42,116 nucleotides of DNA from an uncultured Luminiphilus sp. Lineage in GTDB: Bacteria; Pseudomonadota; Gammaproteobacteria; Pseudomonadales; Halieaceae. Made by a program: the position numbers and the translations under genes. Under the pieces are notes generated by a model. The model did not search any database, was not told the DNA's origin, and saw nothing but the letters and a program-made list of their open reading frames with translations. The stretch is taken from contig CAJQLP010000086.1 of the NCBI GenBank assembly GCA_905479205.1, positions 1 to 42,116 on the forward strand. Reading direction: 5' to 3'. Below are positions 4,956 to 31,651 of the stretch, piece after piece; the first letter of the stretch is position 1, and the number at the start of each line of letters is the position of its first letter.

Positions 4956-4974
4956 CTTGCTGGACGCAAGTAAG
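4956..4974. promoter_or_regulatory. Putative operator, copy 1 (CTTGC-N5-GCAAG)
   Basis: CTTGCTGGACGCAAGTAAG: inverted repeat CTTGC / GCAAG with a five-base spacer (six pairs counting the flanking A and T). It matches the motifs at 13134 and 31633 at the consensus CTTGCTnnRCGCAARYAAG. It lies 115 bases upstream of the BVMO start. Recurrence in three divergent promoter regions argues for a regulator site. The TetR protein encoded at 16629-17276 is the only transcription factor in the window and the natural candidate. Confidence 0.65.
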
Positions 4975-5075
4975 TTTCGCCATTCTGCATGTTTACGTCA
5001 ATCTCTTTCCGCAGACATTCTTGTACCAAAAGAAAATTTTTAGTCTGGCGGCTCAACCAAGATTACGCAAAACAC

Positions 5076-5104
5076 TTGACTATCGTAACGTCTTTCAATA
5101 GCTT
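5076..5104 (+). promoter_or_regulatory. Candidate sigma-70 promoter for the plus-strand operon
   Basis: TTGACT (5076-5081) and TAGCTT (5099-5104) are separated by 17 bases. The -35 is good and the -10 is poor. It is about 75 bases before the LinA-like gene, and the degenerate operator at 5102 would overlap the -10, consistent with repression. This is a motif match only. Confidence 0.3.
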
Positions 5105-5120
5105 GCTAGTCACAAACAAG
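5102..5120. promoter_or_regulatory. Putative operator, degenerate copy
   Basis: CTTGCTAGTCACAAACAAG agrees with the copy at 13134 at 15 of 19 positions (the CTTGCT and CAAACAAG ends match; the centre differs). It ends 58 bases before the start at 5179, similar to the 65 bases between the 13134 copy and its plus-strand gene. The match is weaker than the three main copies. Confidence 0.35.
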
Positions 5121-5178
5121 AAAGACTGTCGTGCTCGGCGCGATGAATAACAAATAAAAAAAACTGATTGGTAAATGT

Positions 5179-5643
5179 ATGAGCGAAGCTTTGTTGGAGC
5201 GACTAGACCGCCTTGAAAGCCGGGTAGACATCGAGGCTCTGGCCTCTAATTATTGTCATGGCTTTGATAAACGCGATGAAGCCCTATTTATGAGCATTTG
5301 GAGCGATGACTGCATTTGGAATATAGGCCCACCGTTCGGCTCGTTTGAGGGTTCTGCGGGAGTTCATCACGCTTTGATTGACATTCTTTGGCCCGCATGG
5401 GGTATTAGCCAGCACGTGACGTCTAATCTCGTCGTTAACTTTATCGATAATGATCATGCAACATCGCGATGTGATGTCGATTGTACTGGGACGCTTGCAG
5501 ATTCGAGGGAGGCCACCTTCGTAGGCGCGACGTATAGCGATGTGCTAGAGCGCCGGGATGGGGCCTGGAAGATTAAGCAGCGCGATGTTGTTATTCACTA
5601 TTTCAACTCATTTTCAGGGACCAACTTGTCGGCCCCTAGTTAG
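5179..5643 (+). CDS. LinA / scytalone-dehydratase-like NTF2-fold protein
   Basis: 154 residues. It resembles, from my memory of the family, gamma-hexachlorocyclohexane dehydrochlorinase LinA. Shared features are an opening LDRLxSR, DKR around the catalytic Asp (here D30), SIWxDD, a LWP, an H-x2-TNL-like block (here H79 in QHVTSNL), and a final ERRDGxWK followed by a YF near the C terminus. LinA uses an Asp-His dyad about 48 residues apart; here D30 and H79 are 49 apart. The natural reaction could be a dehydratase, isomerase or HX elimination; I would not call it a dehalogenase on this basis. It is the first gene of the operon with a TonB receptor, and divergent from the BVMO. The ribosome binding site is weak. 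Confidence 0.75.
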   Translation: MSEALLERLDRLESRVDIEALASNYCHGFDKRDEALFMSIWSDDCIWNIGPPFGSFEGSAGVHHALIDILWPAWGISQHVTSNLVVNFIDNDHATSRCDVDCTGTLADSREATFVGATYSDVLERRDGAWKIKQRDVVIHYFNSFSGTNLSAPS

Positions 5644-5735
5644 TGTGGTCTGCGAAAGAGTAAACTGATGTAAAGTAAAAACAAAAATACAAACTTAACC
5701 ATAAGCTCAAAGGCACTTAGCCAGAGGTAAAAGCC

Positions 5736-7964
5736 ATGAAAAAAACCCCAATAGCCCTCGCTGTTTTAGCAGCAGCTTCAATGGTCCCGGTCGCCACGCC
5801 TGTATTTGCGCAAGATTTTGCGCTTGAAGAGGTCGTGGTAACCGCGCGTAAACGTACTGAGAGCCTTCAAGACGTTGGCTTTTCGGTCAGCGCTCTATCG
5901 CAGTCTCAAATTGATGGGCAGTTCGCCCGTGATATCACTGATCTTGCGAATATCTCGCCCAATATTGTCATCGACGACACGGCTCAAGGTCCAGGTGGCG
6001 TTGCGGCGATCTTTATCCGAGGCATTGGTGTTGCCGACGTGGAAAAGAACTTTGACCCCGCGGTAGGTGTTGTGGTCGACGGCATGTTCATTGGATCCAA
6101 TGCGGGCAGCCTGCTGCGCAGCATTGACATCGCCAGTATGGAAGTACTTCGCGGTCCCCAGGGCACCCTGTTTGGTCGTAACACCATCGGCGGTATTATC
6201 AATATCACGCGAACAAAGCCCACCGGCGAAGTTGGCGGTAAGTTCCGCGCAGGTTACGAGGAGTACGACACGTATTACGCCGATGGTATTTTTAACTTTG
6301 GTGTTGGCGAGGATCTCGCGATTAAGTTGACCGGCGCTGTTCGGGACCAACAGGAAGGCTATTACCAAAACGATGCAATCGGTCGCGACGTGGGTCGTAA
6401 CGACTACCAGTCTTACGGCTTAAACGCACTGTGGACTCCCACTGACGATCTTGAAATTGAATACACCGGGCAGTTTGAGGAGACCGACCAAGATACGCCG
6501 CCGCTTCTCAATACTGCGCAGCCTCGGCACCTATTTTGCTCAGCCTATGGCTATTGCTCTCCCAGCGAAAATTCAACCATCACTGGTGATCGCAGAAAGA
6601 CGGCGAACGTCGGTTATATCCCACCGGACCCCAACGGGGCGGCTTTCGCTGCGTCAACGCCAGATCAAGCCCGCGAAGCAGAAATGGCGGCAACGTTTGA
6701 TGCCGATACCCACATTCTGGAAGTAGGCTGGCAGGCGACGGATGCGCTGCGACTTGACTATGTCTATGGCAGCTACGAGTCAGATGAGACGATTATTTCA
6801 AACTGGGACGGTACGCCAACTTTCTTGTACGGCACTACACGTCCAGCGACTTATGAGCAGTCGACCCATGAATTCCGTGCAAGCTGGGACAATGGCGGCG
6901 CCATTAATGCGGTAGCCGGGGTTTATCTTTGGGATTCAGAGTACGAGATCGGACTGCGCAGTTGGGTGGGGTTCGTGACACCTGGCGTTATCCTCGATCT
7001 GTTACAGAACTCGCGTCAAGAGAGTGAGTCGCAGGCTATCTTTGCAGATATCGACTGGGCTATTAGCGATAAGCTGACGCTCAATATTGGTGGACGCTAC
7101 AACGAAGATGAAAAATGGACCTACCAAGACGGTTTGGTCAACGCCACGGCAAACGAGAGCTGGAATGAATTCACGCCTCGCGCCAGTCTTCGTTATCAAA
7201 TGACTGAAGGCCTCATGACCTATGCCACTTACTCTTCTGGCTTCCGAGCGGGCGGGTTTAATGGCCGGGTGAACTCAATAGAGGAAGCAACGCAGCCTTA
7301 CAACCCTGAGACAGTTGACAACTTTGAGCTTGGCTTCAAGTCAGAGTCGGATGATCGTCGCGTGCGTATCAACGGCTCGGTCTTCTACATGCAGTATGAC
7401 GACAAGCAGGAAGAACTCCAGCTGCCATCTGATACCGGTACTGGTCAGAAGACCGTCGTGACTAACGCATCGGAAGCGGCCATCTGGGGCGTCGAGTTAG
7501 AGGCGCAGGCGGTTATTGGTGAAGCGCTGACCGTGCGTGCCAATATCGGTTATCTCGATACCGAGTACGATAGCTTTCAATACACGGACGCGGTAACAGG
7601 CGGCACGGTTGACCTGAGCTATTTAGAGTTCCGTCGTGCACCTGATTTCACTGGTACGGTCGATGCTACCTATGAGTGGGACACATCGACGGGAAGAGTT
7701 TGGGTGCGCGGTGCATACCACTTCCTAGGCGAGCACCACGTCAACGTTACCAACTCACCTGAGCTAGAAAACGATGCGCAGCATCTACTCGACGCATCAG
7801 TGAATTGGGAAATGGATAACGTAAGAGTTAGCGTGTTTGGTAGAAACCTAAGCGATGAAGACGGTTATACCCACGGCTACGATGTGGCGGGCCTCTGGTC
7901 CTACGCTGCGGTACGAGCACCGCGTACTATTGGTGCCGAGATCGTTTACAACTTCGGAGAGTAA
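5736..7964 (+). CDS. TonB-dependent outer membrane receptor
   Basis: 742 residues. Signal peptide at 1-25 (MKKTPIALAV..., cleaved after VFA), then a TonB-box-like region EEVVVTARKR, a plug domain with VEVLRGPQGTLFGRNTIGG-type signature (here MEVLRGPQGT, about residues 132-155), and a long beta-barrel ending with a C-terminal aromatic-containing strand (IVYNFGE). It imports a substrate too large or hydrophobic for porins, using TonB energy. Co-transcription with a LinA-like protein, an NTF2 protein and an SDR, and no siderophore genes nearby, suggests an organic carbon substrate rather than iron. The start has an AGAGGT site. The next gene begins two bases after the stop. Numerous smaller reading frames in other frames here are shadows. 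Confidence 0.92.
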   Translation: MKKTPIALAVLAAASMVPVATPVFAQDFALEEVVVTARKRTESLQDVGFSVSALSQSQIDGQFARDITDLANISPNIVIDDTAQGPGGVAAIFIRGIGVADVEKNFDPAVGVVVDGMFIGSNAGSLLRSIDIASMEVLRGPQGTLFGRNTIGGIINITRTKPTGEVGGKFRAGYEEYDTYYADGIFNFGVGEDLAIKLTGAVRDQQEGYYQNDAIGRDVGRNDYQSYGLNALWTPTDDLEIEYTGQFEETDQDTPPLLNTAQPRHLFCSAYGYCSPSENSTITGDRRKTANVGYIPPDPNGAAFAASTPDQAREAEMAATFDADTHILEVGWQATDALRLDYVYGSYESDETIISNWDGTPTFLYGTTRPATYEQSTHEFRASWDNGGAINAVAGVYLWDSEYEIGLRSWVGFVTPGVILDLLQNSRQESESQAIFADIDWAISDKLTLNIGGRYNEDEKWTYQDGLVNATANESWNEFTPRASLRYQMTEGLMTYATYSSGFRAGGFNGRVNSIEEATQPYNPETVDNFELGFKSESDDRRVRINGSVFYMQYDDKQEELQLPSDTGTGQKTVVTNASEAAIWGVELEAQAVIGEALTVRANIGYLDTEYDSFQYTDAVTGGTVDLSYLEFRRAPDFTGTVDATYEWDTSTGRVWVRGAYHFLGEHHVNVTNSPELENDAQHLLDASVNWEMDNVRVSVFGRNLSDEDGYTHGYDVAGLWSYAAVRAPRTIGAEIVYNFGE

Positions 7965-7966
7965 GC

Positions 7967-8539
7967 GTGGAGCCACGACTCGTAGAATTACTGGCTAAGC
8001 AAGATATCTACGAGGTCATCGCCCGCTACGCGCGGGCGATTGATCGCTTAGATGAAAATATGCTGAGAGGGGTGTTTCACGCCCACTCGACGCATAACCA
8101 CTTCTACCAAGGTCCCTCATCGGACGCGTCTCGTGCTGCAACCGACGAAGACCCAGGCGATTTTGTGCGCTTTGCTTTGCAAGTTCTCTCAACCTATAGC
8201 CGTACGCATCACCAGCTTGGCAATACGCTGATCGAACTGACTGGCGAAACGACGGCGACGGCAGAAACCTATTTCACTGCATTTCATAGGGTTCGACCTA
8301 TTGGGGACCCGCTTGCCGGCCCTGAAGCGTATGAAACCGAGATGGATTTTTTCGTTGCTGGGCGCTACATCGATCGATTTGAGTGCCTAGCCGGTGAATG
8401 GAAAATTGCTCATCGTACAGGTATGACAGACTGGATACGCCTTGAAGCCCCTGCGTCTAGGGGAACTTCAGGTATTGATCAGTCGACGATTGGTCAGCGC
8501 GCGCCCGATGATTTGATTTATCAATTTATATCGGTGTGA
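7967..8539 (+). CDS. SnoaL/NTF2-like protein
   Basis: 190 residues. It begins with GTG, two bases after the TonB receptor stop, with GGAGAG (inside the receptor end) as ribosome site, so translation is probably coupled. The pattern ARYARAIDRLDENMLRGVF near the N terminus, a THHQLGN block in the middle and a WKIAHRTGMTDW strand near the end fit SnoaL_4-type NTF2 proteins, which include dehydratases and small subunit-like proteins of Rieske systems. The Asp of AIDRLD and the His pair of THHQ sit where catalytic residues are found in scytalone-dehydratase relatives. The C-terminal 25 residues after EAPASRG are an extra tail. Substrate unknown. Confidence 0.78.
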   Translation: MEPRLVELLAKQDIYEVIARYARAIDRLDENMLRGVFHAHSTHNHFYQGPSSDASRAATDEDPGDFVRFALQVLSTYSRTHHQLGNTLIELTGETTATAETYFTAFHRVRPIGDPLAGPEAYETEMDFFVAGRYIDRFECLAGEWKIAHRTGMTDWIRLEAPASRGTSGIDQSTIGQRAPDDLIYQFISV

Positions 8540-8552
8540 GTCGGTATTTTAG

Positions 8553-8569
8553 TAAACCGTAACGGTTTA
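8553..8569. promoter_or_regulatory. Perfect 17-base palindrome touching the SDR ribosome site
   Basis: TAAACCGTAACGGTTTA pairs over eight bases on each side of one central base. Its last base is the first base of the AGGAG ribosome site of the SDR at 8580. It could be a small hairpin affecting SDR translation or a protein site; it does not match the shared 19-bp operator. Confidence 0.35.
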
Positions 8570-8579
8570 GGAGATCCCC

Positions 8580-9416
8580 ATGGAGCAGAGATTGAGCGGT
8601 CGTGTGGCAGTGATCACAGGCGGTGCCAGTGGCATTGGTGCAGCGACGGCAGAAAAGTTCGTTGAGCACGGCGCTAAGGTGGTGTTGGGCGATATTCAGC
8701 AGGGTCCTCTCGATGAGTTTGTCGCACGTCTTGGCGATAACGCCATTGGACTCCGTTGTGATGTGACCAATGAAGACGACGTTGCCGCTCTTGTCGATTT
8801 GGCGGTAAGCCATTTCGGACGCATTGACGTCATGTTCAATAACGCAGGCATTGTCGGTGCTATTGGGCCCATGGATACAACCCCCACCTCTGAGTGGAAG
8901 TTTAGTCTCGACGTGCTACTCAATGGCGTGTTTTATGGCATGAAACACGCGAGTCGCCATATGAAAGTGCAGGGCTCAGGCTCGATTATAAGTATGTCGA
9001 GCACTGCTGGCGTGATGGGCGGTTTGGGCCCCCACGCTTACGCAGCGGCTAAGCATGCCGTCGTCGGTCTCACTAAGAATTTGGCGGCGGAAGTGGGCTC
9101 GAATGGTATTCGAGTGAACTGCATAGCGGCGGCAAGTATGGCGACGCCTATGGTGGCCGCGGCGCTGGGCAATGAGCATACCAACATTGATGACACCTTA
9201 ACGGCCCTTGCCGATATGTCTCCTTTACGTGGGCGCCCTGGACGCGCGGACGATATCGCCAATGCGGTACTGTGGCTCGCCAGCGATGAGGCTGGATACA
9301 TTAGCGGGCATACGCTGGCTGTTGATGCGGGTTTGACCACCGGATCTACTGCAGGGGACCCTAACTTCGCTGAGTATCAGCCGATCATGCGAGAGGCGGG
9401 CAACAAGGGTCTCTAA
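8580..9416 (+). CDS. Short-chain dehydrogenase/reductase (NAD-type)
   Basis: 278 residues, classical SDR. Visible: cofactor loop TGGASGIG (13-20), D38 at the end of the second strand (GDIQ) favouring NAD(H), NNAG (87-90), catalytic S141, Y154 and K158 with the usual 13 and 4 spacing. The C-terminal tail of about 25 residues (after DAGLTTG) is longer than in FabG-like proteins. AGGAG lies six bases before the ATG. It is last in the LinA-like/TonB receptor operon and is followed by a hairpin terminator. Probable role: oxidation of a secondary alcohol to the ketone, possibly one used by the divergent BVMO; inferred from context only. Confidence 0.9.
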   Translation: MEQRLSGRVAVITGGASGIGAATAEKFVEHGAKVVLGDIQQGPLDEFVARLGDNAIGLRCDVTNEDDVAALVDLAVSHFGRIDVMFNNAGIVGAIGPMDTTPTSEWKFSLDVLLNGVFYGMKHASRHMKVQGSGSIISMSSTAGVMGGLGPHAYAAAKHAVVGLTKNLAAEVGSNGIRVNCIAAASMATPMVAAALGNEHTNIDDTLTALADMSPLRGRPGRADDIANAVLWLASDEAGYISGHTLAVDAGLTTGSTAGDPNFAEYQPIMREAGNKGL

Positions 9417-9454
9417 TAACGTGGGCCTTTAATAGCAAGGGCCTGTAATAAAAA
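9407..9454 (+). repeat. Three tandem 16-bp units across the SDR stop codon
   Basis: Units GGGTCTCTAATAACGT, GGGCCTTTAATAGCAA and GGGCCTGTAATAAAAA follow head to tail. The first includes the last SDR codons and stop. The pattern looks like local slippage duplication that supplied one arm of the following terminator. Confidence 0.6.
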
Positions 9455-9494: not shown

Positions 9495-11633
9495 TCATGG
9501 CCCGCTCGGCAGCTCAAAGACAAACAGTCCGCCGCCGCCAGGAGGCTGATAAATGTCTGGGAAAATCACCGCGGTCAGCGCTCTAAAGACACCAATACCT
9601 GTGGGCACCGCAACAAATTGACGACCATCGGCCTCGTAGGTGATGGGGTAACCGTGAGTGGGTGCAGGTAGGCGAGACGACCAAAGTAGCTCTCCGGTAC
9701 TTTGATCAAAGGCCTTGAAGTACCGATCTAAGTCACCAATAAATACCAGTCCACCATCGGTCGATAGCGCCCCGGTTAAAAACAACGCTTCCTGCTCGAT
9801 GGACCACAATGGCTGCAAGTTTTTGGCATCGATAGCCATCAGCTTTCCTGCGGCACTTTCTTTTCCCGGCATGGGGTATGTGGCCACGTCAGCACCGTAA
9901 CCACCGCCGCCTTCACCCAAGTCGACCGCGCGGGGCGTCATGTCTGAGCAAAGTTGGTGTAGCGGTAAAAATAGATGGTTGCTTTGTGGGTTGTAACTGG
10001 CTGACTGCCAGTTGTGGCCACCATAAATGCCAGGGCACGCGGTAAACGTTGTTCCAATTTGTGCGCTAGCAATGTCATGTCGATAGGTGAGGCTGCCTGT
10101 GGAGTGATCGATATCAAAGATGTTCTGAGGCAGTGTTTCGAGTAGCGCGATGAATTCGCCTGACGCACGATCGAGCTTCCAAAGAATGCCGTCCTTGCCT
10201 GCTGTTAAGACCACCTGTTGGCCATCGATATTGGCGAGAATGCGCTCGAAACCCACTTCCATATCGATGGTTTCACCGGGTATGTGCTGGAAGTACCAGC
10301 GGATGTCACCCGTCTTGGGGTCGAGGGCAAGGGTCGAGTTGGTATATAGCGCGGCATCATCGACGCTCATTCCGCGACTTACCGCAGCCCATGGCTTGGG
10401 CTGTGATGTTCCATAGATCACTAAATTGAGCTCTGGATCGTAACTGCCGGCAATCCATGTGTCGCCGCCGCCACGTCGGTCGGGCTCAATCTCACCCCAG
10501 CTCGCATAAGCCTCGGTATCGGGTTCGGCGAGTGTCGACGTGCGCCACAGCTCTTCTCCCGTGTCAGGGTCATGTCCGGTAATAAAGCAGCCATCTTCGG
10601 TAAACAGTTCGCAGCCATTGATGCCACTGACGACAACCCCGTCGGCAATAATGGGTCCGGCGCTGTGAGTAAACGCCTGACGGAAGTCAGCCTTTTCGGT
10701 ACGCCAGCGCTCTGTTCCCGTTTTGATGTCGATAGCGACTAATGCGGCATCATAGGTGGCCAGGAAGAGCGAGTCTTCGAACAGCGCAATGTTACGAGTG
10801 GGGCCGCCTAGTAGTTTGGAGCCGGGCGGATAGGGATAACGGTATTCCCAAATGAGTGACCCCGTAGCGCCATCGATCGCTTGGATTTTGTTGTCGGGAT
10901 GGGTGAGAAACATCACGCCATCGCGGACGAGGGGAGTTATTTGACTGCTACCCGATGATAGCGCCATCGACCAGCTGAGCGTCAGCTCGCGGACATTTTC
11001 TGTGTTGATGTCAGACAATGGGCTGTGGCCATCGCCCTGCGCGGTTCTGCGCCAGTTGAGCCAGTCTGCGGGCTTAGGGTTCTCCAGTTCGGCCATGGTT
11101 ACGGGTTGGAAGTCTTTAATTGTCTGGTTGTTGAAGCCCCCGGCATTGTTGGCAAGGTTCATGATTGCCTCAGCACCCGAGAATTCAACGGCACTGCTGT
11201 CTGCGGCACTGCTATCGACATCACTGCTGTCAACGGCTGCAGTTGCCTCTGGAGCGGTTAAAAGCCCATCTAATTCGCCGAGGCTGGCAAGGAGAGGGGA
11301 GTCGACGAGACGGTCTTTGTTGTACTCAACAATATATCGAGTAAGTTGAGCATGCTCTTTAGGCGTCAGGGTATGCGCAGCGCCGGGAGGCATTTGCGTT
11401 TGCGTAAGCGTAAACAGCGAAGTGGCTGTTTCGTTACGCCATTTATCAATAAAGCCTTTGCCGGCGAGTGCAGCACCATGGGCAGAGCCACGCAGGGATA
11501 CACTGTGACATCCGGCACATTGCTCGTCGTATAACCTCTTTGTTTGATTCGCGTCCTCGCTGGTAGCCTGCGTGGGGGGCGCGGTAAGAAGAGTACTAAG
11601 CGTTACAAGCGCGAGGGTATTAATTGTTTTCAT
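9495..11633 (-). CDS. Cytochrome c-PQQ quinoprotein dehydrogenase fusion (periplasmic)
   Basis: 712 residues. Signal peptide 1-23 (MKTINTLALVTLSTLL...TQA). An N-terminal class I cytochrome c domain follows, with heme motif CAGCH at 39-43 and likely axial Met81 in QMPPGA. A Ser/Asp/Ala-rich linker (about 131-155) leads to an eight-bladed quinoprotein propeller with repeated W-motif blades (GTERWRTE, GEELWRTS, GDIRWYF, GELLWSS) and an alcohol-dehydrogenase-like GGGDTWIAGSYDPELNL segment. In classical quinohaemoprotein alcohol dehydrogenases the heme domain is C-terminal; here it is N-terminal. The ATG at 11633 has GAGG eight bases upstream and starts the signal peptide; the upstream extension to 11699 is rejected. 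It lies downstream of the acyl-CoA dehydrogenase, probably in the same unit. Expected role: periplasmic alcohol oxidation feeding electrons to the respiratory chain. Confidence 0.88.
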   Translation of the reverse strand: MKTINTLALVTLSTLLTAPPTQATSEDANQTKRLYDEQCAGCHSVSLRGSAHGAALAGKGFIDKWRNETATSLFTLTQTQMPPGAAHTLTPKEHAQLTRYIVEYNKDRLVDSPLLASLGELDGLLTAPEATAAVDSSDVDSSAADSSAVEFSGAEAIMNLANNAGGFNNQTIKDFQPVTMAELENPKPADWLNWRRTAQGDGHSPLSDINTENVRELTLSWSMALSSGSSQITPLVRDGVMFLTHPDNKIQAIDGATGSLIWEYRYPYPPGSKLLGGPTRNIALFEDSLFLATYDAALVAIDIKTGTERWRTEKADFRQAFTHSAGPIIADGVVVSGINGCELFTEDGCFITGHDPDTGEELWRTSTLAEPDTEAYASWGEIEPDRRGGGDTWIAGSYDPELNLVIYGTSQPKPWAAVSRGMSVDDAALYTNSTLALDPKTGDIRWYFQHIPGETIDMEVGFERILANIDGQQVVLTAGKDGILWKLDRASGEFIALLETLPQNIFDIDHSTGSLTYRHDIASAQIGTTFTACPGIYGGHNWQSASYNPQSNHLFLPLHQLCSDMTPRAVDLGEGGGGYGADVATYPMPGKESAAGKLMAIDAKNLQPLWSIEQEALFLTGALSTDGGLVFIGDLDRYFKAFDQSTGELLWSSRLPAPTHGYPITYEADGRQFVAVPTGIGVFRALTAVIFPDIYQPPGGGGLFVFELPSGP

Positions 11634-11667
11634 AAGAGTGCCTCGACGATTAAATGCGCGGTCTAAC

Positions 11668-11693
11668 CAGCCCCAACCTGTCGGCTGGGGCTG
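11668..11693 (-). terminator. GC-rich hairpin between ACAD and quinoprotein genes
   Basis: CAGCCCCA (11668-11675) pairs with TGGGGCTG (11686-11693), and the stem extends inward by two or three pairs with one mismatch around a TGTC loop. It falls just after the ACAD stop on the minus strand and before the quinoprotein start. There is no T run, so it may be an attenuator or processing site that lets the two genes be expressed at different levels. Confidence 0.45.
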
Positions 11694-11708
11694 TGCCAAA
11701 GAAGCGGT

Positions 11709-13089: not shown

Positions 13090-13133
13090 AAAACAAAGTG
13101 CTTGGGCTTGTCAAATTCCGCCGTTAGTTTAAA

Positions 13134-13152
13134 CTTGCTTTACGCAAACAAG
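13134..13152. promoter_or_regulatory. Putative operator, copy 2
   Basis: CTTGCTTTACGCAAACAAG, matching the copies at 4956 and 31633. The inverted repeat is slightly imperfect (CTTGC / GCAAA). It lies in the 213-base divergent region between the ACAD gene (130 bases away) and the SDR starting at 13218 (65 bases away). The TTAAACTTGCT flank is also shared with the 4956 copy. Confidence 0.65.
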
Positions 13153-14968: not shown

Positions 14969-14972
14969 CCTT

Positions 14973-16604: not shown

Positions 16605-16628
16605 GCCCGTTTCGAGAGAGAGCATTTT

Positions 16629-18591: not shown

Positions 18592-18600
18592 GGGTTCGGT

Positions 18601-21013: not shown

Positions 21014-21027
21014 ACAGGAGTGTTTCA

Positions 21028-22188: not shown

Positions 22189-22190
22189 TT

Positions 22191-22583: not shown

Positions 22584-22606
22584 TACTTTTTGAGAGGGTA
22601 GTCGAG

Positions 22607-23965: not shown

Positions 23966-24078
23966 CGAGAGAAAGGGAAGAGTGACGCCGTTAGTAGGGC
24001 GGGCGGTTTTAATCGATAACCCGCGGCGACCTTTGACTATGAGTTAGCCGATAAAAAAAAGTAAAGAGGGAAGAACTT

Positions 24079-25911
24079 ATGAAATTTAGTCACCGCTGGT
24101 TGGCGTTGCTGTGTTTTTTTATACCGCAAGCGAACGCCCAAGAGTCGATTTCAGGTGAAGCGCTTTACGAAGCAAATTGTGCTGCGTGCCACAATGGCAG
24201 GGTTTCAAAGGCGCCACCCTTGTCGATGATGGCGACGTTCTCCCCGACATCAGTTCTGCGTGCAATGAATGAGGGCATCATGCAGAGTCAAGCTGCAGCG
24301 CTCTCTCAGCCCCAGCGTTTGCTGGTTGCCGAATACATGACAGGCAAAGAGATCACTGACACTGCTACTGCCTCAGCACCCATGTGTGATCAAAAAAACA
24401 TTGATTTGTCTCTGCCTCCTAAGGTGAGCGGGTGGGGCATTAATCTTGGCAATAACCGGTACTTCGGCGAGCAACTAACGGATATCACATTAAGCGACAT
24501 GCCTGCGCTCGAATTGGCTTGGGCTTTCGCATTCCCTGACGCATCGAGAGTCCGCTCGCAGCCGACCGTAGCAGGTGACAGCTTGTTTATCGGCAGCCAG
24601 ACAGGTGATGTGATGGCAATCGATCGATCAACGGGCTGTGTTCGCTGGACGTTCACTACTGTCGCCGAAGTTCGCACCGCCATTGTTGTTTCCGATTGGT
24701 CTGATACCGACGTCGATACTCCACTGGTGTTTTTTGGCGATCTTGTAGGTAATGTTTATGCGGTCGATGCACGTACCGGTGAGCTCGCGTGGCGAGATCG
24801 CCCCGATCCCCACCCAAGCCTAACGATTACTGCCGCACCCGCATTGCATGAGGGGCGACTGTACGTTGCCTTCTCGTCTTTGGAGGTTGTTGCTGCAGCT
24901 GATCCGGACTACGAGTGCTGCACTTTCCGTGGGGGCGTGGCGACTTACGATGCTGCTTCGGGTAACAAACTATGGACGGGGTATACGATTGATGAAGATC
25001 CAGTGGTCGTTGGCAAAAATGCCATGGGCACCAATCAATTAGCACCTTCTGGTGCGCCTGTTTGGGGTACGCCGGTCATTGATCCAAAGCGGAATCGGCT
25101 CTATGTCGGTACTGGCGAGAGTTATTCATCTCCGGCTGGCAGTACCAGCGACGCGATTTTAGCCTTAAGCCTCGATGATGGCGCGATCATTTGGGCATTG
25201 CAGGCCACGTCTGGTGATGCATGGAATATGTCTTGCGAAACGGAAGGTCGTTTGAACTGTCCTGCAGAGGATGGACCTGATTACGATTTTGGTGCTGCGA
25301 CACTGCTGGCCACCGCGTCTGATGGCAGTGACATATTAATCGCAGGGCAAAAATCCGGCGCTGTGTTCGGTATCAATCCCGATAATGGAGAGCAGGTTTG
25401 GCATAACAAATTAGGTCGTGGTGGTATACAGGGCGGTGTCCACTTCGGCATGAGTGTCGATGGCGATGTTTTATATGTGCCGATATCGGATTTCTATGGT
25501 GGGCCTCGATGGCCGGGGCGGGCCTATCCGGGAATGTTTGCCGTCGACGTGCGCACGGGCGAGACCCTCTGGTTTACTGAAACCGATAACGTCTGCGATG
25601 GCCGTGAATTTTGTGATCCCGGCCTCTCTGCGGCAGCATCTGCCATTGTTGGTGGCGTGGTGGGCGGAGCAATGGATGGGCGGCTGAGAGCCTATGCGCA
25701 GGACAGTGGAGAGGTCGTATGGGAGTACAACTCCCTTAAGGATTACGCCGGTGTCGGTGGCGCGAAAGGGTCAGGTGGCTCGTTCAGTGGTGCAGCTGGT
25801 CCTGTATTTGATGGCGATATGATGTTCGTAACCTCAGGTTACGGAATTTATAACCACATGGCCGGAAATGTCTTGTTGGCATTTAAGCGTCAAGCACATG
25901 AGGATAAATAG
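24079..25911 (+). CDS. Cytochrome c-PQQ dehydrogenase, PVA-dehydrogenase-like (periplasmic)
   Basis: 610 residues. Signal peptide 1-20 (ends ANA). N-terminal heme domain with CAACH at 34-38; a probable axial Met lies in the following RAMNEGIMQ region. The rest is a quinoprotein propeller with W-motif blades (GELAWRD, GEQVWHN, GETLWF, GEVVWEY) and a vicinal cysteine pair C280-C281 in CCTFRG, as used near PQQ in this class. Length and domain order match polyvinyl-alcohol dehydrogenase (cytochrome) relatives. It is paralogous to the protein at 36362-38239, including the CCTFRG motif. It oxidises an alcohol in the periplasm; PQQ synthesis genes are not present here. GAGGGAAG precedes the ATG. The 113-base spacer before it holds only a weak hairpin. 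Confidence 0.88.
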   Translation: MKFSHRWLALLCFFIPQANAQESISGEALYEANCAACHNGRVSKAPPLSMMATFSPTSVLRAMNEGIMQSQAAALSQPQRLLVAEYMTGKEITDTATASAPMCDQKNIDLSLPPKVSGWGINLGNNRYFGEQLTDITLSDMPALELAWAFAFPDASRVRSQPTVAGDSLFIGSQTGDVMAIDRSTGCVRWTFTTVAEVRTAIVVSDWSDTDVDTPLVFFGDLVGNVYAVDARTGELAWRDRPDPHPSLTITAAPALHEGRLYVAFSSLEVVAAADPDYECCTFRGGVATYDAASGNKLWTGYTIDEDPVVVGKNAMGTNQLAPSGAPVWGTPVIDPKRNRLYVGTGESYSSPAGSTSDAILALSLDDGAIIWALQATSGDAWNMSCETEGRLNCPAEDGPDYDFGAATLLATASDGSDILIAGQKSGAVFGINPDNGEQVWHNKLGRGGIQGGVHFGMSVDGDVLYVPISDFYGGPRWPGRAYPGMFAVDVRTGETLWFTETDNVCDGREFCDPGLSAAASAIVGGVVGGAMDGRLRAYAQDSGEVVWEYNSLKDYAGVGGAKGSGGSFSGAAGPVFDGDMMFVTSGYGIYNHMAGNVLLAFKRQAHEDK

Positions 25912-25912
25912 A

Positions 25913-27724
25913 GTGCGCCGGTCTCATCCACTCAAGCGCCTAGCAATGACTCGAATTTCCCTGGTGTTTTTGGGCGCTTGCTTTGTCATGAATCCATCTA
26001 TTGCAAGCGATTCATACTCGCCCAATGTCTCGGAGCATCGGACGCAATTGTATTGGGGTGATCTTCACCTCCATACGGCATTGTCTGCCGACGCATATAC
26101 AATGGGTGCGCGGACTAGCCCTGATACAGCCTATCGCTTTGCGCGCGGTGAAACAGTGTCGGCAGGTAACGGCATGCCAGTGAGGGCCCGTTATCCTCTC
26201 GATTTTTTAGCAATAACCGATCACGCTGAGTACCTGTCGATTTACGCGTTGCTCGATGCTGAGGATCCGCGGCTTGCGGATTGGGAGCTTGGTAAAGAAT
26301 GGACAGCGCTTTTGCGCGCGGGCCGTATGGGTGAGCTGACCATGGCCTTTGCCAACGCTTTTCAAAATCCCTCTCCAGAAAATATGGCGCCACCTGCAGT
26401 GGTGAAGGGGGCGTGGGATGATGCCGTCGCTACCGCCGATCGATACAATCAACCTCATCGATTTACCACACTGCCTGGTTATGAATGGACGTCGACGATA
26501 GCGGGCGACAACTTGCATCGGGTGGTTATATATCGAGAGGGCGTTGGTTTTGCCGACCAATTGCAGCCGTTTTCATCTCAGGACAGTAGCGACCCCGAAA
26601 TGCTGTGGGCTGCGCTTGAGCGCTATCAAGCGTATTCGAGTGGTGAGGTGCTTGCTATTCCTCATAATTCAAATGTCAGCAATGGAAGGCTCTTTTCGCC
26701 CATTCGGCACAACGGTGAAGCCTTCGATAGCGATTACGCAGCGAAACGCAAGCGGTGGGAGCCACTGCTCGAGGTTACGCAGGTAAAAGGTGACTCCGAA
26801 ACGCATCCCTATGTATCACCCCAAGACCGTTATGCGGACTTCGAGCGGTGGGATGAGGGCAACATTAATTTAACTCAGCCAAAAGCACCGTGGATGTTTG
26901 CGCAAGAATACGCAAGGCCAGTACTCCAAGCAGGGTTGCTTTATCGAGAGCAGTTGCATCAAAACCCCTATGAGTTTGGATTAATCGGTTCTTCGGATTC
27001 GCACACCGGATTCAGTGCTGTTGCTGAGGATAATTTCTTCGGCAAGTTTCGCAGCAGCGAGCCGTCGGCAGAACGCATGTTCACGCGGATGGCCGATGTA
27101 CTGAATGAAAATTGGCGGCTGAGTGCTTCTGGTTTAACCGCTGTTTGGGCAGAAGAGAATACGCGAGAAGCGATCTTTGATGCGCTTCGTCGACGGGAAG
27201 TCTATGCCACCACAGGATCACGAATTAGCCTGAGATTTTTTGGCGGCTGGCAGTTTTCGCCTTCCGATTTGCAGAGCGTGCCGCTGTCGACTGTTGGTTA
27301 TCAAAAAGGCGTGCCTATGGGGTCGGTGATGGCGCCCAATAACGATGCTGATGGCTCCCCCAGTTTCATGCTGATGGCAATGAAAGAGCCAGACGGGCCA
27401 AACCTGCACGCTTTGCAGGTCGTCAAAGGCTGGGTTAATGATCGAGGTGAGCGCAAAGAGCGCGTATACGACGTTCAGCTAGCAGGTCCGAACGAAGAGG
27501 ACGGCGCTCCCAGTTTGTCGGCCGTGTGGCGAGATGAGGATTTCAACGCTATTCAAGATGCCGTCTATTACGCTCGAGTGATTGAAGTGCCAAGGCCTCG
27601 CTGGACGTCTAAAGACGCGTTATTTTTTGACGTGAAGCGCCCGGACGACGCGCCAGAGCAGCTCCAAGATCGGGCCTACTCGTCGCCCATTTGGTACTAC
27701 GCAAATCCTACGGCGTCGCAGTGA
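25913..27724 (+). CDS. DUF3604 protein, PHP-like exported metal-binding protein
   Basis: 603 residues from the GTG at 25913, which sits just after the quinoprotein stop and has GAGGA about eight bases upstream. Alternatives are ATGs at 25898 (overlapping the quinoprotein) and 25946, all in frame, so the start is not certain. With the GTG start there is a basic n-region followed by a hydrophobic stretch ending at ASDS, a signal peptide. Motifs YWGDLHLHT (47-55) and FLAITDHAEYL (98-108) are the PHP-superfamily metal-binding signatures; SSDSHTGF later adds more. The family's function is unknown. Immediate coupling to the PVA-dehydrogenase-like gene suggests a role in the same periplasmic oxidation, for example hydrolysing a product ester or phosphate; this is inference. 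Confidence 0.8.
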   Translation: MRRSHPLKRLAMTRISLVFLGACFVMNPSIASDSYSPNVSEHRTQLYWGDLHLHTALSADAYTMGARTSPDTAYRFARGETVSAGNGMPVRARYPLDFLAITDHAEYLSIYALLDAEDPRLADWELGKEWTALLRAGRMGELTMAFANAFQNPSPENMAPPAVVKGAWDDAVATADRYNQPHRFTTLPGYEWTSTIAGDNLHRVVIYREGVGFADQLQPFSSQDSSDPEMLWAALERYQAYSSGEVLAIPHNSNVSNGRLFSPIRHNGEAFDSDYAAKRKRWEPLLEVTQVKGDSETHPYVSPQDRYADFERWDEGNINLTQPKAPWMFAQEYARPVLQAGLLYREQLHQNPYEFGLIGSSDSHTGFSAVAEDNFFGKFRSSEPSAERMFTRMADVLNENWRLSASGLTAVWAEENTREAIFDALRRREVYATTGSRISLRFFGGWQFSPSDLQSVPLSTVGYQKGVPMGSVMAPNNDADGSPSFMLMAMKEPDGPNLHALQVVKGWVNDRGERKERVYDVQLAGPNEEDGAPSLSAVWRDEDFNAIQDAVYYARVIEVPRPRWTSKDALFFDVKRPDDAPEQLQDRAYSSPIWYYANPTASQ

Positions 27725-27756
27725 TCGCGGCTGTCGGTTTCTAGGGGTCGCCGACG

Positions 27757-28458
27757 ATGGATAATCCTGAATACACGGTGTATCTCTATCCCTCCCCGAA
27801 TTCTTTAAAAGTCATTATTGCTTTGGAAGAATTAAATCTTCGCTACCAGACCGTCGTCGTTGATCTGGCGGAAGGCCAGCAGCTGGCGCCGGCATTCGCG
27901 GCCTTAAATCCAAACCGGAAAGTGCCTGTATTAACCGCCGGTGACCTGACCTTGTTCGAGTCAGCCGCCATTCTTGAGTACTTAGCGACGACACATGACC
28001 AACTGATGGGACAGACGGTTCAGCATCATTGGCAGATCAAGTCCTGGCTTTATTGGCACGCGGCGGCTTTTGGGCCAATGGCGGGCCAAGCACATCACTT
28101 TCGGTGTTTTGCTCCGGAGCACGTGCCTTATGCCGTACGCCGTTATTCCGACGAGATGAACCGACTCTATGGCATTTTGGAGGAGCAGCTCGCAGGCAGA
28201 GAGTGGGTCTGTGATACCTATTCCATCGTCGACATTGGTCTCTGGCCATGGGTACGCCATCACGACTGGCAAGGTCAGTCACTCATTAATTTTCCATCAG
28301 TGCAGCGTTGGGCTGATGCGATGGCTGCGAGGCCCGCTGCGATTCATGCAGTCGAGCGTTATCCCATTCAATTGATTGCTCCCCATAAGTACGGTGTGCT
28401 GCTTAATCAAACCGCAGCATCCCTTAAAGCCTCATCGACAGAAGAAGAGATTAATTAA
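27757..28458 (+). CDS. Glutathione S-transferase family protein (first of two)
   Basis: 233 residues. The N-terminal thioredoxin-like domain shows the LYPSPNSLKVIIALEE start, NPNRKVPVL with the cis-Pro, and the glutathione-binding FESAAILEYL (Glu-Ser pair). The C-terminal helical domain includes VDIGLWPWV. It resembles YfcG/Ure2p and LigF-like GSTs. AGGGG lies before the ATG. Its TAA overlaps the ATG of the next gene (TAATG). Two GSTs in a catabolic operon may act in ether cleavage, dehalogenation or glutathione-dependent isomerisation; I cannot choose between these. Confidence 0.88.
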   Translation: MDNPEYTVYLYPSPNSLKVIIALEELNLRYQTVVVDLAEGQQLAPAFAALNPNRKVPVLTAGDLTLFESAAILEYLATTHDQLMGQTVQHHWQIKSWLYWHAAAFGPMAGQAHHFRCFAPEHVPYAVRRYSDEMNRLYGILEEQLAGREWVCDTYSIVDIGLWPWVRHHDWQGQSLINFPSVQRWADAMAARPAAIHAVERYPIQLIAPHKYGVLLNQTAASLKASSTEEEIN

Positions 28459-29390
28459 TGATTCCGATACTCCATCACTACGATGCATCGCCGTTTTCCC
28501 GCAAAGCACAAAAAATGCTAGGCATCAAAAAACTCGCATGGGTGTCGATCGAAATGCCCATGACGGCACCTAAGCCTGATATTGAGCGCCTTACCGGCGG
28601 CTATCGAGGGACGCCAGTTCTCCAGTTGGGCGCTGATATTTTCGTCGACAACCTCGCCATTGCCGAGGCATTGGACGGTCTCTACCAAGACGCGCCTTTA
28701 CTTATGGGGAAGCAGTCGAGATTTATCGATGCTGCAATCGGACATTGGGCCGATGCGCTTTTTGACCCTGTACTTCGCGCCGCCGTTGGGAAATATTCAT
28801 CAAGCTGGGATGATCATTTCTTGGCGGACAGAAAAGCTGTTTTCCCGCACCTCGATTTTGATCAGCTTGCGGAAGAACTGCCTTTATACGCCAATCGAAT
28901 TGCGATGTTAGCCAGTGAATTGAATGACCATTTGGCGAGCCATGGCCCCTTTATAAATGGGCCCTTTATACATGGGAGTGATGTGAGTCTTGCGGACGTG
29001 CATTGCTGGGGCATTCTCTGGTTTGTGCTCGCTGGACTCCCTGAAACTTCCGGCGCTCTGGCGGCAATGGCGAAGCTCCAAAGTTGGTACTCAGCGTTAG
29101 ATGACATAGGGTTTGGCGATCGAGCTGAGAAGAGCTACGACTATGCATGGCAGATGCTCGAGGAGAATCAAGATGCGCCGCCATGTTTAGATCTCACTTC
29201 CGTCGAATCGTTCGCAGATTGGGTTGGAAAACCTGTTGCTGTGAAAGCTGAAGGCGCGGATCGAGGAACCGTGTTGGGGCGTTTAGAGGCAATTTCCGAG
29301 CGCTTAATTTTACTAGCGGTGACGCAAGATAATGGCTCGGAAGCGCGTGTTCACCTCCCGCGTGCGGGCTACTCGTTGGATTTCAATTGA
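28458..29390 (+). CDS. Glutathione S-transferase-like protein with C-terminal extension
   Basis: 310 residues. A GST N-terminal half (HHYDASPFSRKAQKML, later GTPVLQLG and FVDNLAIAEAL) lacks the usual Glu-Ser pair at the FxESxAI position; it reads VDNLAI, so glutathione binding may differ. The helical domain contains ADVHCWGILWF. A C-terminal extension of about 70 residues (after YDYAWQML) ends VHLPRAGYSLDFN and has a small beta-rich look. Inside the gene a 15-bp tandem duplication encodes GPFIN GPFIH (around 28944). It is translationally coupled to the first GST and 22 bases before the SDR. Confidence 0.75.
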   Translation: MIPILHHYDASPFSRKAQKMLGIKKLAWVSIEMPMTAPKPDIERLTGGYRGTPVLQLGADIFVDNLAIAEALDGLYQDAPLLMGKQSRFIDAAIGHWADALFDPVLRAAVGKYSSSWDDHFLADRKAVFPHLDFDQLAEELPLYANRIAMLASELNDHLASHGPFINGPFIHGSDVSLADVHCWGILWFVLAGLPETSGALAAMAKLQSWYSALDDIGFGDRAEKSYDYAWQMLEENQDAPPCLDLTSVESFADWVGKPVAVKAEGADRGTVLGRLEAISERLILLAVTQDNGSEARVHLPRAGYSLDFN

Positions 29391-29412
29391 TCGACTGAGA
29401 GGAAACGTATTG

Positions 29413-30234
29413 ATGACGGCATTACTGGAATTTAAAGATGGAACTTCGCGAATCGCCCTTGTAACGGGTGGTGCCGGTGGTATTGGCTCTGCTACTGCAC
29501 GGGCGTTGGCGAGTCATGGCGCATCAGTCGTTGTCACAGATATTGATCGCGCAGCGATAGACGCTGTGGTCGACGATATTCGCAGTAAGGGTGGACAAGC
29601 TACCGGCTGTGTTCTTGACGTGGGCGACCCCGCATCATGGCTCGCCGCTCGCGATGTGGTCAAAGACACCTATGGTGATTTATCTGTGCTTGTTAACAAT
29701 GCAGGCGTTGACGTGATTAAGAGTGTTGCCGATACGACCCTGGCTGATTGGGAGCGCTTATTCAGGATCAATAGCACCGGTATGTTTCTGGGCACACAAT
29801 GTTTTCTTGATGATTTGCATGCGGCGGGTGAACGAACAAAGGTTTACAGTTCCATTATTAATATGTCGTCAATCTGCGGCAATATTGGCGTCGCTTTTCA
29901 GAGTGCTTATTGCGCGACTAAGGGCGCGGTGCGCATGTTTACTAAGGCTGCTGCTGTTGAATTTGGCAGTTTAGACAAGCGAGTGCGAGTCAATTCAATC
30001 CACCCCGGAACGGTCGATACCGCCTTTGCTGCCCAGTGCCTAAAAGAGCTAGGAGAAGCAGGCTTCGCTCCAAGCCCCGAGGAAGCGCGAGAAGCAATAA
30101 GAGCAGCTCATCCGATTGGCAATATGGCAAGCGGCGATGAGATCGCAGATTCGATTGTATTTTTAGCGTCTGACTTATCACGCTTTATGACGGGCTCTGA
30201 GATGTTAGTGGACGGGGGTTACACCGCCCAATAG
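29413..30234 (+). CDS. Short-chain dehydrogenase/reductase
   Basis: 273 residues from the ATG at 29413, preceded by AGAGGA; the longer frame from 29332 would overlap the GST gene by 58 bases and adds no family residues. Visible: VTGGAGGIG, TDID at the end of the second strand (NAD-type), NNAG, and catalytic Ser-Tyr-Lys in MSSICG...YCATK with standard 13 and 4 spacing. Unlike the SDR at 13218, this one has a complete catalytic set. Last gene of the long plus-strand run and convergent with the M24 gene, 22 bases away. Likely alcohol/ketone oxidoreductase acting on a ring or side-chain hydroxyl. Confidence 0.9.
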   Translation: MTALLEFKDGTSRIALVTGGAGGIGSATARALASHGASVVVTDIDRAAIDAVVDDIRSKGGQATGCVLDVGDPASWLAARDVVKDTYGDLSVLVNNAGVDVIKSVADTTLADWERLFRINSTGMFLGTQCFLDDLHAAGERTKVYSSIINMSSICGNIGVAFQSAYCATKGAVRMFTKAAAVEFGSLDKRVRVNSIHPGTVDTAFAAQCLKELGEAGFAPSPEEAREAIRAAHPIGNMASGDEIADSIVFLASDLSRFMTGSEMLVDGGYTAQ

Positions 30235-30256
30235 CGCTTTAATGCGCCCGACACCA

Positions 30257-31522
30257 TCATGTCACTTCAATAAGATCGAGCGGGGTTTGATACAAGCTGT
30301 AACTACCCGTCTCGGTTACGATGAAAACATTTTCCATATGTGAGGGACCCAGCTCACTCCCAAAGTACAAGCAGTCGATACTGATTGCCATTCCGGGTTT
30401 AACGTCGAAACCATCGCGAGCCGCATGCCAACCGGTCCCCGGATAGGCGACGGGGCTTTCCAGCGGTACGTGCCCCACGGAGTGCGCGACGACCAATAAC
30501 TTGTCCGGCGCACCTAACCGTTTGGTTTCCGGAATATTGTCTATTCGACAAATCTGCGCCGTGTTGGCGCCGGGTTTTAATCGCTCCACGAGTGTTGTGT
30601 AGATTGCTTTCACGCATGCGTGCTGATCGCGATAGGCCTGCGGCGGGGTGCCGATATATGCGGTGCGGTTGATGTCAATCCAGAAACCGCGATACCGACC
30701 CTGGGTTTCCATGATCGCTATTTCTCCGCCTTCGAATGGTCGATCGTAAGGGGTGCGGAATAAGTCAGAGCGAAAGACGAGATCATAGGCGCCACCAAAC
30801 AGCATTGGGCTGCCAGGTAATGGATCAACGCCTTCATCGATCATAAACTTCGCCACTGATTTTTCGACATTGCTCCATGATTTGCCGACGCCAAGCTGGC
30901 TCACGGTATGAGCGATGATTTTGTCGGCGACTACGCCGCTCTCTTTCAGGAGGGCAATCTCCGCCGGCGTTTTTACGGCGCGCGTGGCTAGCATGACGTC
31001 AAGGGCATCTTGCCAGCGCTGCCCATTACTTTCGGCAAGTCTGGTGGCCACCCGCAGATCATCGAACATGATGACTTGATCGGTAAAACCGCGTTCTTCA
31101 AGGCAATGCTTTAGCGCGAGCATAATGTTCTCGGCGCATTGACCCTCAATGAGTTGAGTAATAGATGAAAGCTCGGCGGTCAGATCATCCGGAAGGTCAA
31201 GGTGCGCGTCGTGGCCGCGAGCAGTCTCGCAAAAATTCAGCATGTCGTAGGTGCGTATCCGTTCGTAAAAAACAGGATGGCCACCTCGCTCCGAGGTGAT
31301 AAGCGACACTAGACTCGCCTCAGGCATAAAGAGGGTCACTGGCTCCTCAGCGTTGGTGGGCACAAAGACTGCAGCGATCGGCTCTATTAAGTGCCAACCG
31401 TCCATGACCGAGCTGAAACCGGTCGCGTAAAGGATATTGTCTGTTGTTGTTAGCATTGCACCCGCTGAGCCCGCCTGAGTTAAGCGTGATCGCAGTTGGG
31501 CAATTTTCAATGCGTAGTCCAT
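30257..31522 (-). CDS. M24-family (creatinase/aminopeptidase P fold) protein with altered metal ligands
   Basis: 421 residues. The N-terminal creatinase-like domain (1-185) and C-terminal pita-bread domain are both present. Aligning by eye with aminopeptidase P ligands D260, D271, H354, E383, E406 gives E272, D283, H347, D383 and E397: the first Asp is Glu and the fourth Glu is Asp, so two carboxylates are swapped in type. The fold also includes creatinase and other C-N or C-O hydrolases, so a peptidase role is uncertain. The AGAGGG site precedes the ATG. It is divergent from the TonB receptor at 31733, with the operator motif between them, so it is probably co-regulated with the cluster and acts on a pathway metabolite. 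Confidence 0.85.
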   Translation of the reverse strand: MDYALKIAQLRSRLTQAGSAGAMLTTTDNILYATGFSSVMDGWHLIEPIAAVFVPTNAEEPVTLFMPEASLVSLITSERGGHPVFYERIRTYDMLNFCETARGHDAHLDLPDDLTAELSSITQLIEGQCAENIMLALKHCLEERGFTDQVIMFDDLRVATRLAESNGQRWQDALDVMLATRAVKTPAEIALLKESGVVADKIIAHTVSQLGVGKSWSNVEKSVAKFMIDEGVDPLPGSPMLFGGAYDLVFRSDLFRTPYDRPFEGGEIAIMETQGRYRGFWIDINRTAYIGTPPQAYRDQHACVKAIYTTLVERLKPGANTAQICRIDNIPETKRLGAPDKLLVVAHSVGHVPLESPVAYPGTGWHAARDGFDVKPGMAISIDCLYFGSELGPSHMENVFIVTETGSYSLYQTPLDLIEVT

Positions 31523-31587
31523 GGTGAACCCTCTTTTGATGAGCCCACGTTATCGCGAGTCATAGGTCTGGTGTGTGTCGTGAGAAA

Positions 31588-31599
31588 ACAATTAATTGT
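31588..31599. promoter_or_regulatory. Perfect 12-bp palindrome in the M24 leader
   Basis: ACAATTAATTGT is fully self-complementary. It lies 66 bases upstream of the M24 start, between that gene and the operator at 31633. It is AT-rich, and such short palindromes arise often, so it is only a weak candidate protein site. Confidence 0.25.
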
Positions 31600-31632
31600 G
31601 GTTGCACTAGCTCCGAGTTTATAGTTAATATC

Positions 31633-31651
31633 CTTGCTGTGCGCAAGCAAG
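31633..31651. promoter_or_regulatory. Putative operator, copy 3
   Basis: CTTGCTGTGCGCAAGCAAG, with a perfect CTTGC / GCAAG inverted repeat and a five-base spacer. It matches the 4956 copy, with agreement continuing into AAGTT. It lies 111 bases upstream of the M24 start and 82 bases upstream of the TonB receptor start. Confidence 0.65.

Follow-up and report, generated by a model that had tools for sequence, protein, structure and literature searches.

Why does one 19-bp palindrome recur at the promoters of a single gene cluster, and what protein might bind it there? The question is raised by a stretch of 42,116 nucleotides (contig CAJQLP010000086.1, here called the window) from an uncultured Luminiphilus sp., whose assembly (GCA_905479205.1, or G000) comprises 2.5 Mb in 230 contigs and is 83% complete. 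I will argue that four sites in the window, designated A to D, are very probably operators of the cluster's own TetR-family protein (16629-17276), predicted to repress the catabolic units and itself and to be released by a ligand.

The first-pass annotation had placed the motif CTTGCTNNRCGCAARYAAG at 4956-4974, 13134-13152 and 31633-31651, and a pattern search of the window finds it there, exact at each position; the distances it gave to the minus-strand starts at 4841, 13004 and 31522 (115, 130 and 111 bases) are likewise correct. A further copy, with two mismatches, lies at 5102-5120. When up to three mismatches are allowed, the window contains 5 matches, compared to 0.94 expected, and 5 were reached in 1 of 100 shuffled sequences. 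The sites were also scored by a symmetric weight matrix built from 33 distinct 25-mers of relatives, the window being excluded from training (the site at 13134 is letter-identical to one training site of a relative; those at 4956, 5102 and 31633 are not). The top four scores in the window are 30.5 (4956), 28.1 (13134), 25.0 (5102) and 20.9 (31633), all of them intergenic, and the fifth-best place, within a gene, scores 10.7; the matrix thus picks out these four and no more, and the first-pass annotation had likewise noticed no copy elsewhere in the window. In 200 order-1 Markov sequences as long as the window, the top score averaged 9.7 and never exceeded 24.5; a score of at least 20.9 was attained in 1 of the 200 and a score of at least 25 in none. 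The site at 5102 had been described as a degenerate copy. That description is rejected, because the matrix ranks the site among the top four and above the exact match at 31633, and because it is conserved in relatives; I count it as a full operator, making four.

The symmetry of the site was judged from 36 distinct 25-mers. The best dyad center is position 10 of the 19-mer, with 53% complementary pairs, and the ideal palindrome is CTTGCTTG-N3-CAAGCAAG; in the sites of the window its left arm reads CTTGCT and its right arm CAARYAAG. The inverted-repeat core first proposed, CTTGC-N5-GCAAG, is centered on position 8 and comes a narrow second (48%), and it was dropped as the dyad on that count. 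A fuller form, ACTTGCTTG-N3-CAAGCAAGT, appears at sites preceding distant paralogues of the TetR protein. The loose palindrome CTTGCTNNNNNNNARYAAG was discarded for genome-wide use, since it is frequent by chance and finds a match in 74 of 97 genomes.

Operator A (13134-13152), an exact match, lies in the divergent promoter between the acyl-CoA dehydrogenase (ACAD) gene and the SDR-APH-ACS-TetR operon, and of 46 linked loci, 45 have it at the same promoter and one at an operon head. Operator B (4956-4974), also exact and the top scorer, lies at the promoter of a Baeyer-Villiger monooxygenase (BVMO) and is kept before that gene in relatives. Operator C (5102-5120) stands at the promoter of an operon encoding a SnoaL-like protein and a TonB receptor, and it too is kept in relatives (before SnoaLb-TonB1). 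Operator D (31633-31651), the third exact match, lies between the genes for an M24 peptidase-like protein and a second TonB receptor, TonB2; it is found between the same two genes in G028, G034, G039 and G042, whereas in G040 it precedes a different TonB receptor (31% identical) and in G038 the E1 alpha gene. One correction concerns the pair at 4956 and 5102, which belongs to two separate promoters, set apart in eight Luminiphilus relatives by an operon for biosynthesis of the rare cofactor F420.

Throughout the assembly, the only sites with zero mismatches are the three within the window. Outside it there is one match with a single mismatch, in an open reading frame (ORF) resembling (by eye) an aldehyde dehydrogenase, and five with two mismatches. 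Of these five, an SMC-like ORF contains two and another ORF a third; the fourth lies between convergent genes and the fifth, on contig C217, outside any ORF of 90 amino acids. Apart from the match on C217, the matches outside the window were set aside as operators for lying in coding sequence or between convergent genes. The genome-wide search called for by the first-pass annotation has found no frequent and random spread of the motif, and no credible further site was seen in the assembly, 83% complete as it is.

The position of the operators relative to promoter elements bears on what a bound protein would do. Of 49 site/direction entries, 19 have a -35 hexamer (defined as a match to at least 5 of 6 positions) exactly 26 bases ahead of the operator, while no other offset occurs more than four times. 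The 26-base offset is found in 12 of 18 entries for A and 7 of 11 for C, as compared to 0 of 20 for B, D and E together (E being an extra operator of one relative, described below). An operator at this fixed distance behind the -35 covers the -10 region, and so the arrangement at these two promoters, A and C, suggests repression by occlusion of RNA polymerase. In the window, the promoter TTGTCA-N16-TAAACT (13108-13135, plus strand) has a -10 element, matching 4 of 6 positions, that overlaps operator A. The -35 element TTGACT (5076-5081, plus strand) lies 26 bases ahead of operator C, which is overlapped by a weak -10-like TAGCTT (5099-5104) that matches 3 of 6 and falls under the threshold of the promoter tool. 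A -35-like TTGACG (4996-5001, minus strand) faces the BVMO gene from 27 bases ahead of operator B, an offset at which it occurs in 2 of 8 relatives' entries including the window, with no good -10 seen. No clear promoter was seen at operator D in the window.

The same geometry bears on the possibility that the TetR protein is an activator, or that it represses one flank only and leaves the divergent minus-strand genes (ACAD and M24) outside its control. Only A toward SDR2, C toward SnoaLb and, weakly, B toward BVMO show a promoter-like layout, which counts in favor of that possibility. Covering the -10 region is, however, ill-suited to activation, and most of the relatives read keep the ACAD and SDR genes diverging from the site. 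TetR proteins are mostly repressors. I consider activation or one-sided control unlikely. What the sequence shows is the sites, their conservation, the co-occurrence with tetR described below and, at A and C, the fixed distance from a -35 element; from there I infer that the TetR protein binds the sites, that it represses rather than activates, that an inducer releases it and that both genes at each divergent promoter are controlled jointly.

The identity of the binding protein is suggested by the company that the site keeps. The set of genomes with tetR consists of 29 with a hit at an E-value of at most 1e-30, among them G083 and G091 at only 38-40% identity, and one, G036, with a fragment at a contig edge (E 7e-12). 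Among 57 genomes of the genus, a site with no more than one mismatch occurs in 26 of the 27 that have tetR and in 8 of the 30 that do not (p 5e-8, kinship ignored). Over all 97 relatives the corresponding figures are 29 of 30 and 16 of 67, with the reservation that in G083, one of the 29, both near matches are on contigs other than that of its tetR-like gene. The reversed control pattern was found in 11 of the 57 genomes and 24 of the 97. At closer range, 53 loci around relatives of tetR, taken from the collection of named genomes with flanks up to 10 kb, contain 49 matches with no more than two mismatches, at 47 places in 41 loci, compared to 1 for the reversed control. On contigs that include the tetR operon's promoter, a script placed the site at the operon head in 42 of 46 loci (44 distinct records); in the remaining four it lies inside an over-long SDR ORF call (L091, L128, L302) or before a TonB1 gene that heads the operon (L135), bringing the total to 46 of 46.

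Natural absences point in the same direction. An orthologue of the ACAD gene is found in 12 of 390 genomes of the order, and its promoter carries the site in 8 of the 8 with tetR and in none of the 4 without (G106, G172, G199 and G223; in G106 the ACAD gene no longer faces SDR). G060 retains the order ACAD/SDR-APH-ligase-hydrolase-luciferase, but tetR is missing from its place between the ligase and hydrolase genes, and 20 kb of sequence contain no site. Since G060 is nested among tetR-bearing genomes in a tree of cluster proteins, its loss of both tetR and site is derived.

The protein itself (16629-17276, plus strand) has the N-terminal helix-turn-helix domain of the family (TetR_N, PF00440, 44.0 bits compared to a cut-off of 24), and its AlphaFold2 model is all-helical and TetR-like (pLDDT 88.7). 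As expected of a TetR repressor, a palindromic operator, predicted from sequence, stands at promoters that include that of its own operon. The recognition helix, AGYSRGLAxxRFGSK, is nearly invariant in its orthologues. Distant paralogues (34-44% identical) have a significant site upstream of their own start in 10 of 19 cases (combined p 2e-7), and one further paralogue, L283, was counted as a miss though a site is visible there, its ORF call being too long and scoring nothing. The helix of the paralogues is largely the same whether they bear a site or not, and because the siteless members of family f41 share it, it does not discriminate among paralogues; by itself the recognition helix does not prove the operator. 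The neighbors of the paralogues are mixed. Some are of acyl-CoA type, namely fused acyl-CoA mutases (G091, G338), an acyl-CoA dehydrogenase (G338) and a carboxyltransferase (G211), while others include a GMC oxidoreductase with an AcrB-type pump (G381) and a nitronate monooxygenase (G193). In G091 (L087:3149-7127) and G338 (L295:6525-10491), the paralogue has an operator directly ahead of it and adjoins a gene for a fused MeaB/acyl-CoA mutase.

A rival reading assigns the palindrome to some other regulator, whether local or global, with the TetR protein at 16629 merely a passenger in the cluster. A second TetR-family gene, not present in the window, does lie beside the SnoaLd operon in the clusters of G060 (L255:10804-11409) and Luminiphilus syltensis (L084:12765-13400), and ORFs of similar size occupy that place in other genera. 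Three genomes of the genus have sites and no tetR hit, and binding by the TetR protein is a prediction from sequence. The three (G011, G029 and G046, among the eight of the genus with site and without tetR) do have cluster genes, and their assemblies are 74-83% complete. Several further observations weigh against the TetR protein as repressor at all four sites and should be set out with these. G043 has tetR but no site, its tetR contig being 4.6 kb long. No site at up to two mismatches was found in 12 of the 53 tetR loci, though several of those contigs stop before the promoter, three represent weak tetR hits and one (L126) has a form with three mismatches. Four of the ten site-positive paralogues come from a single genus (g28), where the sites are weaker and lie 125-245 bases upstream, and no upstream operator was found in any of the eight paralogues of family f41, despite the same recognition helix. 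The -35 element is missing from the 26-base offset in 6 of the 18 entries for A and all 20 for B, D and E; the -10 elements at A and C are weak; and the promoter tool called only A among the operators of the window. Operator B is oriented relative to BVMO opposite to the way it is in relatives. Finally, all the relatives compared are related sequences and not independent.

Nonetheless, I judge control by another regulator to be quite improbable. A scan of 36 genes of the window turned up no further transcription factor, and the own genome is without another credible site. The second TetR was rejected as the binder, because its recognition helix differs, and it is also absent from the window and persists in G060 despite the loss of the site. 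The sites ahead of distant paralogues point instead to the lineage of the TetR at 16629. That protein had been named as the candidate regulator at the outset, and comparative genomics (co-occurrence, position, natural absence and the sites of paralogues) now lends the proposal support. As for the idea that the repeats are RNA hairpins or occur by chance, it can be put aside: inverted repeats are able to fold and chance copies with two or three mismatches do occur, but sites A and C, at the expected -10 position, would be mostly untranscribed, and the operators are found in either orientation and are conserved while their flanks diverge.

If the protein at 16629 is the repressor, regulation would proceed as follows. 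The TetR protein, bound as one dimer or as two, would settle on the 19-bp palindrome, cover the -10 region and shut out RNA polymerase, thereby silencing the uptake receptors, the monooxygenases, the CoA ligases and the 4-hydroxyacyl-CoA kinase/dehydrogenase module. Because tetR lies downstream in the operon headed by site A, it would repress itself through that site. Release would come from an intermediate of the pathway, most likely an acyl-CoA, since the core operon is concerned with acyl-CoA chemistry and some distant paralogues adjoin acyl-CoA genes. A fold search was of no use in naming the ligand, returning only generic TetR neighbors.

The regulon had been thought to tie together five transcription units; the idea of a regulon is upheld by comparative genomics, and the number of predicted units is six. 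Unit B is the BVMO gene (3219-4841, minus strand; the ORF is also open from 4883). Unit C (5179-9416, plus strand) encodes SnoaLb, TonB receptor 1, SnoaLc and SDR1. Operator A is flanked on the minus strand by a unit (9495-13004) that encodes an ACAD11-like acyl-CoA dehydrogenase and a PQQ/cytochrome c dehydrogenase, and on the plus strand by one (13218-18079) that encodes SDR2, an APH-type kinase, an acyl-CoA ligase, TetR and an alpha/beta hydrolase. The plus-strand genes that follow (18172-30234) encode SnoaLd, ligase 2, a FAS1-type dehydratase, a thiolase, a ChsH2-like OB protein, a Rieske oxygenase, PQQ2, a DUF3604 protein, two GST and SDR3, and are probably read on from unit A. The SnoaLd-ligase-thiolase operon directly follows the tetR operon in the window; in G039, and only there, an extra operator, E, was seen before it (L251:17905-17923). 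Operator D is likewise flanked by two units, the gene for the M24 peptidase-like protein (30257-31522, minus strand) and, in the other direction (31733-40702, plus strand), the genes for TonB receptor 2, E1 alpha, E1 beta, PQQ3, E2 and a cytochrome P450.

The nature of the two genes nearest operator A is suggested by their closest structures. The best PDB chain for the ACAD protein is 8v3u (E 7e-74), and, as I read its alignment with ACAD11, it retains the arginine, histidine and arginine of the R/HxxR signature (as HAMR for HCMR) and the catalytic aspartate. The APH-type kinase matches 8v3v (E 9e-29) and 8v3u (E 2e-27), its best chains overall being 9o56 (E 3e-38) and 3dxp (E 8e-35), and it retains the catalytic HGD..N residues in HGDYHLDN. 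By these sequence features, the ACAD and APH genes around site A, with residues for catalysis and phosphate handling retained, constitute a split, predicted 4-hydroxyacyl-CoA module of the ACAD11/LvaA-LvaC type. The BVMO is nearest to cyclohexanone and phenylacetone monooxygenases; the thiolase is nearest to an uncharacterised thiolase and next to lipid-transfer-type chains. The BVMO, Rieske proteins, P450, PQQ dehydrogenases, ligases, thiolase/ChsH2-like pair and two TonB receptors make this, by annotation, an oxidative catabolic cluster, one whose pathway probably passes through a 4-hydroxyacyl-CoA.

Operators B and C are 127 bases apart in the window. In eight Luminiphilus relatives (G008, G015, G020, G028, G031, G034, G039 and G046), an operon bounded on both sides by operators stands between BVMO and the SnoaLb unit, both ends of the stretch having been read. 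In G039 (L071:5751-11291), Pfam and NCBIfam models identify the operon as one for F420 biosynthesis, encoding NpdG/Fno, CofE, CofD, CofC and CofGH. CofC, CofD, CofE, CofG, CofH and NpdG all score above curated cut-offs, and the full-length CofGH model falls short (997.9 compared to 1018) while both of its domain models are above theirs. The operon in the other seven was identified through hits to CofD and CofE and through similarity. A second BVMO-operator-F420 segment lies on another contig of G031 (C122, L246) and may represent duplication or contamination. In most relatives, the hydrolase gene of the tetR operon is followed by one for a luciferase-like oxidoreductase (L070:14602-15606 and equivalents). 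Its best model is TIGR03619, at 131.6 bits below the cut-off of 166.9 for a curated F420-dependent assignment; that the enzyme uses F420 is what I infer.

Among the 57 genomes of the genus, CofE is found in 18 of 27 with tetR and in 2 of 30 without, and those two (G011 and G046) have operator B; the luciferase-like gene (E 1e-40 or better) is found in 24 of 27 and 2 of 30, respectively. The window's assembly, within its 83% completeness, has no match to CofE (PF01996), and neither CofE nor the luciferase-like gene was found in it or in the one-contig genome of L. syltensis. The third tetR genome without the luciferase-like gene is G004, whose tetR contig stops just after tetR. Missing CofE hits in genomes with tetR may similarly reflect contig ends, as seen in G024, G038 and G040, and counts of losses are therefore uncertain. 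The window's genome does have a CofD-like gene on contig C207 (L237:9317-12670), adjoining genes for an S41 peptidase and a nitroreductase-family protein; it was rejected as an F420 gene, since it encodes a GAK-system protein. A tree of five cluster proteins places the window as sister to G039 (support 0.994) and makes L. syltensis the first branch of the genus; the BVMO of L. syltensis lies elsewhere in the cluster, and the stretch read there contains no F420 operon. Because the window's sister has both the F420 operon and the luciferase-like gene, the lack of both in the window appears to be a derived loss, and most likely the window's lineage lost the F420 operon, leaving operators B and C adjacent.

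These observations permit a broader proposal, for and against which I find the chances evenly divided: that a catabolic TetR repressor commands the synthesis of F420. In most Luminiphilus with the cluster, the cofactor would be made on demand only, dedicated to one luciferase-like enzyme in a 4-hydroxyacyl-CoA/Baeyer-Villiger pathway, and the window would represent a lineage in which the cofactor operon disappeared along with the enzyme, the two abutting operators being the scar. F420 would then be tied, in the relatives, to a single and probably inducible pathway. What F420 does in a proteobacterium could be put directly to the test in a cultured strain such as HTCC2080, and nature supplies controls of its own in the genomes where the operator went with tetR and the enzyme with the cofactor. 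Apart from F420, a previously unassigned TetR of marine bacteria gains a concrete predicted operator and a list of targets.

How does this compare with known systems? The solved structures of MtrR, TtgR and FadR share the TetR fold with the model of the window's protein (TM-scores about 0.7; phmmer E 2e-8 at best), but with about 18-25% identity neither operator nor ligand can be transferred from them. The lva operon of Pseudomonas putida and the proteins ACAD10 and ACAD11, which serve the catabolism of 4-hydroxy acids, pair a kinase with an ACAD (PMC12440821), as does the window. In the window, however, kinase and ACAD are separate divergent genes within a much larger oxidative cluster, and the regulator is a TetR protein. 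That of the lva operon is a sigma-54 activator.

The use of F420 in catabolism has its precedent in picrate degradation by Rhodococcus, Nocardia and Nocardioides, where F420-linked, luciferase-like hydride transferases take part, according to a 2021 review that also states that outside the Actinobacteria no F420-dependent reductase or F420-reducing dehydrogenase had been experimentally studied (PMC8498797). Compared to the picrate systems, the Luminiphilus relatives have their F420 operon between two operators of a catabolic TetR, and the window is without the operon. Among openly licensed PMC papers, none was found that joins F420 biosynthesis with the Halieaceae, nor, in the titles and abstracts of the matches listed, one reporting an F420 operon under TetR control within a catabolic regulon; the two papers of one listing that name F420 do so, in the passages seen, for hydrogenases of other organisms.

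The nearest analogue found is KstR2 of mycobacteria, a TetR protein of cholesterol catabolism that acts through one palindrome, present also before its own gene, at three promoter regions of one catabolic cluster (PMC3068626). The likeness extends to a local TetR, a single palindrome, one catabolic cluster and the half-site word CAAG/CTTG. The KstR2 motif given there, AnCAAGnnCTTGnT, has CAAG on the left and CTTG on the right with 2 bases between, whereas the window's palindrome has CTTG on the left and CAAG on the right; with the half-sites in the opposite order and at another spacing, the window's sites are not instances of the KstR2 motif, and the regulated genes differ as well. Local TetR regulons of such layout are thus already known, and it is the inducible supply of F420, if true, that would be the novel part.

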